Shown here: positions 43,259 to 45,068 of the stretch, piece by piece
Layout of the letters: the number at the start of each line of letters is the position of its first letter
How positions within the stretch are numbered: the first letter of the stretch is position 1
Assembly: GCA_958295905.1 (NCBI GenBank)
Contig: OY282382.1
Span: forward strand, 1,450,001 to 1,514,000
Reading direction: 5' to 3'
DNA from: an uncultured Vicinamibacterales bacterium
GTDB taxonomy: Bacteria; Acidobacteriota; Vicinamibacteria; Vicinamibacterales; UBA8438
DNA: 64,000 nucleotides
Position numbers and translations under genes: made by a program
Notes under the pieces: generated by a model
What the model was told of the DNA's origin: nothing
The model's input: only the letters and a program-made list of their open reading frames with translations
The model's database searches: none

Positions 43259-43264
43259 TAGAAT
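43259..43264 (+). promoter_or_regulatory. Possible -10 box, leaderless start of the endonuclease
   Basis: TAGAAT lies six bases before the ATG at 43271, the same spacing as TATTAT before the methyltransferase start. No convincing -35 is seen, so this is weak. Confidence 0.3.
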
Positions 43265-43270
43265 TCGACG

Positions 43271-43885
43271 ATGGCGAAGCGTTCCGGGAACCGAGTCGAC
43301 AGAACCTGCTTCAACCCCGCAGCGGAAGCCCGCCTGCCGTACGAGCTGCGTCTGATGGACTTCGAGGCGGCAATGCGGGACATGTACGATTTCTTCCACG
43401 ATATCAACAGCTCGCTGACCGATCGCGGGCTGCGCCGTTTCGAGGACATGCTTCGCCCCGCGGCCATGTCCGGTTTGATCTCCGACCTGCTGACGTCGAG
43501 TCTCGCGAACCATTCCCGCTGCCTCACCGAGAATCGCTTCTTCAATGGTCACCCGGATCTGATCGTCTCCGGCCTGTACGCGAACGACAGCGTGCAGGCT
43601 GGTACGGAAGGCGTCGAGATAAAGTCGACGCGCAAGAAGGGAGGTGCGGTCGATACCCATGGTGCGCGTGAACAGTGGATGTGCGTGTTCGTCTACGAAG
43701 TGGATACCGAGACCGAGCCGGCACGCGACCGCCGGCCGATGACCTTTACGGAAGTGTATCTGGCGCACGTCGCGGTCGCTGACTTCAGGACGAACCCGCG
43801 GGGGAGACTTGGCACACGGACCGCGACACTACACAAGGAAGGCGTCAAGAAGCTCCGCGGGCACTGGATCTACAGGATGCCGTGA
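43271..43885 (+). CDS. Type II restriction endonuclease, PD-(D/E)xK fold
   Basis: 204 residues. A helical N-terminus leads to the catalytic core: HPDLIV (Asp96) and VEIKST (Glu116 and Lys118), spaced as in PD-(D/E)xK nucleases. '[15 protein letters not shown]' follows, as in several Type II enzymes. I infer it cuts DNA at the site modified by the neighbouring methyltransferase. Recognition site unknown. Its last 16 bases overlap the 3' end of the methyltransferase gene on the other strand, and no ribosome site precedes it. Confidence 0.7.
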
Positions 43886-45033
43886 TCAAGTGCCGTTGTA
43901 TAGGACGTCAACCGCGGAATCGCCCGGCAAGCCACGTCGAAGTACTTTGGATCGTTTTCGACGCCGATGCTCCTGTAGCCGACGGCTTCGGCAGCGGCCA
44001 ATGTCGAGCCGGCACCGCAGAACGGATCGAGAACGACGCCGTCACCGAGGGGCAGAACACCGCGGACCAACTGTCGCAGGAAGTCCTGTGGCTTCAGGCT
44101 CGGATGGGGCGCTATCCCGCGCTCTTCCTTGCGCGTTGGGGCGGAGCGGATTACGTCGCCGAACGGCGATGTGGCGGACGGACGTCGGAAGCCGCCGACG
44201 CGCCAACGGCGGAGATTGTCCTGGACTCGCCCGTCAAGTGGCCGTCGGAACAGAAGCCACGGCTCCCACATCGAGCGTGGCATCACGCTCACCTCCGAGA
44301 ACTCTTCATGTGCGCCCTTCGGGCGGTCGCCGCCGCGCATCGTCATCACCAACCTGACGATCTCACCGCGTCGCTCCAGGCCGGCTTTGGCGAGCGCCCC
44401 GGAGACGATGTACGAGAGGAGGGGGTTGCTGGCCACGACGACATTCGCGCCGGGCACGAGAACGGGCGCGAGAGAACGCGCCCAGCGGGAGAAGAACTCA
44501 TCCAGCATGCGCAAGTCGTGGGGGGAAAGAACGGTGAATCGGGGTAGCGGCGACCGCTGCGCACCGTCGAAGGCGGGCGGGAGACGCCAGACGCCACCCT
44601 TGCGGGCACGCAGCTTTTTCTGCTCCTTTGGCGAGTACTCGACGAGGCCGTACGGGGGGTCCGTGACGACCGCGTGAATGGAATTCGGCTTCTGCAGTCT
44701 CAGCCAGTCGAGGCAATCAGCCTGCACCAAGGTCGTATTCCTGTAGTCGACGGTACGGAACGGCGCCGGCGTGGCCTCAGCGTGCCCGTCACCGTTGGTC
44801 CCTTCTTCGAGACCGGGCAGCCGGTAGACGCCGCGTCCGTCGCGAACGAAGAGCCGTGGGGTGTTGAGGCGCAGGTAGGAACGCACGCTGGACGCGGAGA
44901 CATCACCAATGATGCCGCGGGTGCGGTCGATGATCAGCGCCACGGACGCTCCCGCCGGGTGCGCCTCGAGGATGGCCAAGACTGCGTCGCGCACTTGGCC
45001 CGGCGCTCGCCGAGGCCTGGGGGCTTCAGCCAT
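43870..45033 (-). CDS. DNA adenine methyltransferase (beta class) with N-terminal winged helix
   Basis: 387 residues from ATG 45033. The first 75 residues form a winged-helix-like domain ('QVRDAVLAILEAHPAGASV', 'SSVRSYLRLNTPRLFVRDGR'). Motif IV TDPPYG (124-129) comes before motif I DPFCGAGST (336-344), the beta-class order, with the target-recognition region between them. DPPY favours N6-adenine. It protects host DNA from the convergent endonuclease. The N-terminal domain could repress its own promoter. Its 3' end overlaps the endonuclease gene by 16 bp. Confidence 0.85.
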   Translation of the reverse strand: MAEAPRPRRAPGQVRDAVLAILEAHPAGASVALIIDRTRGIIGDVSASSVRSYLRLNTPRLFVRDGRGVYRLPGLEEGTNGDGHAEATPAPFRTVDYRNTTLVQADCLDWLRLQKPNSIHAVVTDPPYGLVEYSPKEQKKLRARKGGVWRLPPAFDGAQRSPLPRFTVLSPHDLRMLDEFFSRWARSLAPVLVPGANVVVASNPLLSYIVSGALAKAGLERRGEIVRLVMTMRGGDRPKGAHEEFSEVSVMPRSMWEPWLLFRRPLDGRVQDNLRRWRVGGFRRPSATSPFGDVIRSAPTRKEERGIAPHPSLKPQDFLRQLVRGVLPLGDGVVLDPFCGAGSTLAAAEAVGYRSIGVENDPKYFDVACRAIPRLTSYTTALDHGIL

Positions 45034-45039
45034 GCATCG

Positions 45040-45068
45040 ATAATAGACGTCCAGACGTCTTTTTTCAA
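45040..45068 (-). promoter_or_regulatory. Methyltransferase promoter, leaderless layout with two GACGTC sites
   Basis: Minus strand: TTGAAA (45068-45063), exactly 17-bp spacer, TATTAT (45045-45040), then six bases and the ATG at 45033. Transcription would start at or next to the start codon, so the mRNA is probably leaderless; no ribosome site is present. The spacer contains GACGTC twice (minus-strand reading AGACGTCT-gg-ACGTCT region, 45046-45060). Confidence 0.75.

Follow-up and report, generated by a model that had tools for sequence, protein, structure and literature searches.

In the window, which is the whole 64,000-nucleotide stretch of DNA that was analysed, two genes run towards each other from opposite strands, a restriction endonuclease gene (hereafter R) and a DNA methyltransferase gene (hereafter M). 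The initial annotation had described a convergent endonuclease/methyltransferase pair overlapping by 16 bp at the 3' ends, and both open reading frames were found as described. The features of the locus, numbered from the first letter of the window, are the following:

43134-45117, unstranded: inserted cassette, approximate extent, from tadA to a conserved downstream terminator-like hairpin
43271-43885, plus strand: R, restriction endonuclease gene, 204 aa, PD-(D/E)xK, predicted EcoRV/NaeI-like fold
43553-43624, plus strand: catalytic motif of R, P95-D96 ... E116-I117-K118, with P95, D96, E116 and K118 invariant
43870-43885, unstranded: convergent 3' overlap of R and M, 16 bp (an overlap is present in 62 of 74 relatives)
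43870-45033, minus strand: M, beta-class adenine-type DNA methyltransferase gene, 387 aa, predicted N-terminal winged helix
44002-44028, minus strand: motif I of M, DPFCGAGST, residues 336-344, SAM-binding
44650-44661, minus strand: motif IV of M, DPPY, residues 125-128
44818-45006, minus strand: predicted winged-helix domain of M, approximately residues 10-72, recognition helix SSVRSYLRLN
45040-45045, minus strand: -10 element of the putative M promoter, TATTAT, ending 6 nt before the ATG
45046-45059, unstranded: candidate operator GACGTC-CA-GACGTC, each hexamer self-complementary
45063-45068, minus strand: -35 element of the putative M promoter, TTGAAA

The product of R carries both halves of the PD-(D/E)xK motif that had been read in its sequence, H94-P95-D96 and V115-E116-I117-K118, and its residues P95, D96, E116 and K118 do not vary among 51 homologues or within a set of 42 that includes distant ones. 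Its predicted structure (pLDDT 93) best matched NaeI (Z 10.1 over 144 residues, 3.6 Å), which alone clearly stands out among the fold matches, followed by SwaI, EcoRV (Z 6.5), SfiI, BglI and HincII, with Z scores of 5-7. The invariant PD...ExK residues, together with a model matching restriction endonucleases, place R in the PD-(D/E)xK nuclease superfamily, with a likeness to NaeI/EcoRV-type endonucleases that lies in the predicted fold and the PD...ExK site. R is nevertheless 15-16% identical to NaeI, and its 204 residues leave no space for the second domain of that enzyme; we do not claim membership of NaeI for R, the likeness being confined to the fold. By sequence, R had been said to resemble no nameable family, and this held: Pfam, NCBIfam and PHROG returned no match, single-sequence and profile searches of the PDB returned no relative, and the PADLOC Type II REase model matched R weakly, several homologues matching the same model better (best 2e-5). 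No match of this 204-residue protein to a non-nuclease family arose.

M belongs to the beta class, as first proposed, with DPPY (125-128) preceding FCGAG (338-342) in the motif order of that class and a predicted fold of the CcrM/RsrI type. It matches the Pfam family N6_N4_Mtase and the PADLOC model MTase_II (375 bits), and its predicted structure (pLDDT 82) matches CcrM (Z 23.8), M.BceJIV (23.1) and M.RsrI (about 20). The model is also close to the cytosine-N4 enzyme M.PvuII (Z 21.6), so that the assignment of an adenine target rests on the DPPY motif, which favours adenine as the target base; M presumably methylates adenine. At its N-terminus, the model places three helices (residues 11-24, 31-42 and 47-56) followed by two wing strands (63-65 and 69-71), with a mean pLDDT of about 90 across this stretch, and thereby supports the winged helix predicted there by the initial annotation; the domain had no match above the family cut-off in Pfam. 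As a separate observation, the whole G000 genome contains 24 matches to the N6_N4_Mtase family, several of them in open reading frames of about 1000 codons, which points to many further methyltransferases.

R and M stay side by side in about 80 relatives, which span about 13 phyla and include small plasmids. One scan of bacterial and archaeal genomes yielded 80 kept loci, with R matches at 64-76% identity, and the carriers of R include Pseudomonadota, Acidobacteriota, Chloroflexota, Nitrospirota, Planctomycetota and Verrucomicrobiota, as well as Actinomycetota, Gemmatimonadota, Myxococcota and others. Plasmids bear the cassette too: one of 4938 bp, mobilizable and found in Citrobacter and Klebsiella, and others from Pseudomonas, Rhizobium and Gordonia. 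M adjoins R in essentially every fetched locus, being absent solely at L086, where the contig ends, and the two genes are convergent except at L093, where they run in the same direction. The identities of R and M covary (Pearson 0.69 across 72 systems, a value that none of 2000 Mantel permutations reached), and phyla are intermingled in the M tree, which together indicate that the pair moves as a unit. Separate nuclease and methyltransferase genes, kept together and covarying, are the composition of a Type II restriction-modification system.

The insertion itself can be delimited by comparison with two genomes of the same genus, in which R and M are absent and tadA and the DNA from 45118 onward are adjacent, with an unrelated spacer of approximately 190-300 bp in place of the cassette. 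GC3 is 0.78-0.79 in R and M, versus 0.89-0.95 in their neighbours. In another genus of the same family (G005:C27:135371-136900), R is broken across frames, and M is intact, 84-85% identical, with the winged helix and the operator kept. The restriction-modification reading given at the outset is supported by several findings: R and M are obligately linked across phyla, R has an EcoRV/NaeI-type fold, M has the fold and motifs of the beta class, and the two genes were cleanly inserted as a cassette. R and M are a real Type II restriction-modification pair. Elsewhere in the window, positions 46110-46368 hold a tandem array of about four GC-rich 63-bp units that reaches the end of a TonB-dependent receptor gene, and related units are present in genomes of the same genus.

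The interval 45033-45070, named earlier for a binding test of the N-terminal domain, contains a conserved candidate operator (45046-45059), the pattern of which was found by printing the DNA upstream of M across loci. An exact GACGTCNNGACGTC lies just upstream in 87 of 87 loci encoding the winged helix (about 78 of them non-redundant, about nine duplicating others), loci cut by a contig end being excluded from the comparison. Conversely, the operator is missing from L030, L052, L054, L075, L097, L099, L169 and L170, all of which lack the winged helix. The exception is L077, where GACGTC-GT-GACGTC occurs at 2714 near a divergent M in which the winged helix is not detectable. The winged helix is a separate open reading frame, usually overlapping the start of M, in L061, L083, L098 and L101, and L080 and L087 likewise encode it in a frame other than that of M; where it forms a separate frame, the operator precedes that frame and not M directly. 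Since the operator tracks the presence and absence of the domain and precedes the free domain frame, the site appears to follow the winged helix.

The window contains one copy of the operator against 0.06 expected by chance, and its own genome contains two further copies, neither of them beside M or a winged helix. Among viral contigs, the TA-centred form of the operator occurred in 28 stretches, of which L206 alone carries the system; the remaining 27 of 28 hold no relative of the system and are taken as chance matches. R was not found in phage records, and one close M match among them, from a Halorubrum virus (49.5%), has neither the winged helix nor the operator.

In the window, the operator is located inside the 17-bp spacer of the predicted M promoter, TTGAAA-17-TATTAT (45068-45040), which is the sole sigma-70-like site between 43000 and 45300. 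A logo built from 77 loci gave cTTGAC-N4-tGACGTC-(T/C)(A/G)-GACGTC-tAnnnT, again with a 17-bp spacer, and the operator ends 9-17 nt from the start codon in about half of the measured loci. Because the -10 element ends 6 nt before the ATG, the M mRNA is probably leaderless in the window. Sigma-70 scores of at least 9/12 were reached by the upstream regions of M in 56% of loci and by those of R in 21%, compared with 2% of random 120-bp stretches. The upstream regions of R generally lack the operator, and this, together with their weaker sigma-70 matches, fits an order of expression in which the methyltransferase would come first and the nuclease later. With the domain fused to M, and an operator in the M promoter that co-varies with that domain, M is very probably its own repressor. 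The suggestion of the initial annotation that the winged helix could let M control its own gene is thus strongly supported, at the level of sequence, by the association of winged helix and operator, and the modelled N-terminal domain and the operator overlapping the M promoter would make M a dual-function methyltransferase repressor.

Repression of a methyltransferase gene through a fused N-terminal domain is documented for Ecl18kI, SsoII and EcoRII (PMC12707154, PMC3978073, PMC3874152), and the likeness to these systems, and also to ScrFI and MspI, consists in an N-terminal DNA-binding region of about 70 residues, an operator in the own promoter and self-repression. The enzymes differ, in that M.SsoII is a cytosine-5 enzyme with an N-terminal region resembling the phage 434 repressor, whereas M is a beta-class amino-methyltransferase of adenine type, lacking the cytosine-5 domain and bearing a predicted winged helix. 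The arrangement of the genes differs too: in Ecl18kI, M is divergent from R and their promoters compete, while here the genes converge and R has no operator. The operator itself, made of two palindromic hexamers 2 bp apart, is unlike those of the EcoRII/SsoII kind. M would work like the repressors of this kind from outside their enzyme family, and a beta-class adenine-type enzyme that carries a winged helix, combined with an operator of tandem hexamers and with convergent genes, is undescribed in the open-access literature searched.

The nearest parallel to 6-bp palindromes arranged in tandem within a restriction promoter is RptR of Type I systems, a small repressor whose sites are likewise conserved between genomes (PMC12255303). 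RptR is, however, a free all-helical protein that binds repeats of TAGCTA and governs an entire Type I island (PMC12255303), whereas the domain described here is part of a Type II methyltransferase, or is encoded immediately ahead of one, and the repeated hexamer is GACGTC. Type II systems controlled by C proteins share the autogenous control that lets M precede R, but a separate C gene ahead of R is lacking in the system of the window and in most of the members examined; in the window, R is preceded by tadA on the other strand, with no C-like open reading frame. In a distant relative on the Acidiphilium plasmid pACMV5 (L097, 742-1628), the control module has been swapped: R shares 4 bp with a C-protein-like HTH gene, and neither a winged helix nor the operator accompanies M.

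An alternative to repression through a dedicated operator is that the system itself recognises GACGTC (AatII/ZraI specificity), in which case the promoter would hold two methylation targets, and their methylation state would set M expression, as in CfrBI, or would be read by the winged helix. Several observations speak for it: each of the 87 loci has exact copies of the hexamer, the hexamer is a palindrome containing adenine, and the fold of R is that of palindrome cutters. Moreover, identity at 12 of 12 bases in every locus is more than most repressor operators show, which lends some plausibility to a reading as methylation sites. Promoter control by methylated cognate sites is described in reviews (PMC3874152), control by methylation state is ascribed to CfrBI in a review, repression in EcoRII depends on methylated sites (PMC12707154), and winged-helix domains are presented as able to sense m6A in PMC11037411. 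Against this stand L030, L052, L054 and L075, whose R is 68-73% identical to that of the window and which have neither the winged helix nor the site, arguing that the site follows the winged helix and not the restriction-modification specificity. The carriers show no avoidance of GACGTC (pooled O/E 0.90; 388 copies seen versus 415 expected in the sampled own genome), which counts weakly, as mobile systems often leave none. A literature search for GACGTC methylation or a GACGTC-NN-GACGTC operator returned haloarchaeal and unrelated matches only, and the GACGTC enzyme of Natrinema is an m5C enzyme. That GACGTC is also a methylation target is therefore possible but disfavoured, and as an account of the whole system we consider it unlikely; its more specific form, in which the operator consists of the target sequence of the system in duplicate and the winged helix fused to M senses whether these copies are methylated, is slightly less likely again. 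If it were true, completed methylation, and not only the M protein, would switch M off, and about 13 phyla would share a methylation homeostat whose sensor is part of the adenine methyltransferase itself.

CAGCTG, the PvuII site, was also considered as the target on account of its avoidance, but this evidence was rejected, related genomes without R avoiding it equally. It is the most avoided palindromic hexamer of the own genome (16 copies versus 155 expected in 464 kb) and is strongly avoided in carriers from other phyla (0/31 and 1/44), but genomes of the same genus and of the same family that lack R avoid it as strongly, and R-less relatives of one carrier (G100) do likewise, with 18 sites in G120 and 10 in G121. 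Over the whole G000 genome (6.3 Mb), CAGCTG occurs in 183 copies versus 6925 for GTCGAC, and it is found in 10-140 copies in several relatives and genomes of other phyla, with or without the restriction-modification system.

It is very improbable that the winged helix mainly aids M in finding or holding its DNA target while a host regulator binds the GACGTC pair. Accessory N-terminal domains on beta-class enzymes do exist, as the alignment of the Type III Mod subunit Mbo45V over residues 6-376 of the M model indicates, but the domain also occurs here as a free open reading frame, which the operator then precedes, and the operator is identical across about 13 phyla with unrelated host regulators. 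That the pair is not a restriction system at all, R being for example a nuclease that serves some other pathway and has an orphan methyltransferase as its neighbour, is hardly credible, for although R has no solved relative by sequence and no Pfam family, the linkage of R and M is near-perfect, their identities covary, the predicted fold of R is that of EcoRV/NaeI, several homologues weakly match the PADLOC Type II REase model (best 2e-5), and the broken R beside an intact M in G005 is the decay order expected of such a system.

The reading that we favour, and consider likely, is that R and M form a mobile Type II restriction-modification cassette of two genes, in which M exerts negative feedback on its own promoter; within it, we infer DNA binding, repression, the temporal order of expression, leaderless transcription, the adenine target and restriction activity. 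M would methylate the recognition site, presumably on adenine, and so protect the host, while R, as an EcoRV/NaeI-type PD-(D/E)xK nuclease, would cut that site when unmethylated. The winged helix of M would bind GACGTC-NN-GACGTC in the spacer between the -35 and -10 elements, keeping RNA polymerase out. On entry of the cassette into a new cell, where no M is present, the strong M promoter would be open and the methyltransferase made first, and R, from a generally weaker and operator-free promoter, would build up later. Accumulating M would then close its own promoter and be held at a level at which restriction stays effective.

Mobile restriction-modification systems must make the methyltransferase before the nuclease on every entry into a new cell. 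Here, one feedback circuit, composed of a domain and a 14-bp operator, would have accompanied its genes without change into about 13 phyla and also onto small plasmids of enterobacteria. Its winged helix occurs fused, split or replaced by a C-like gene, giving natural variants with which the establishment of such systems can be tested, and the operator provides a cheap marker for finding further members. Together, domain and operator form a compact candidate repressor, which may function in hosts of widely differing kinds.
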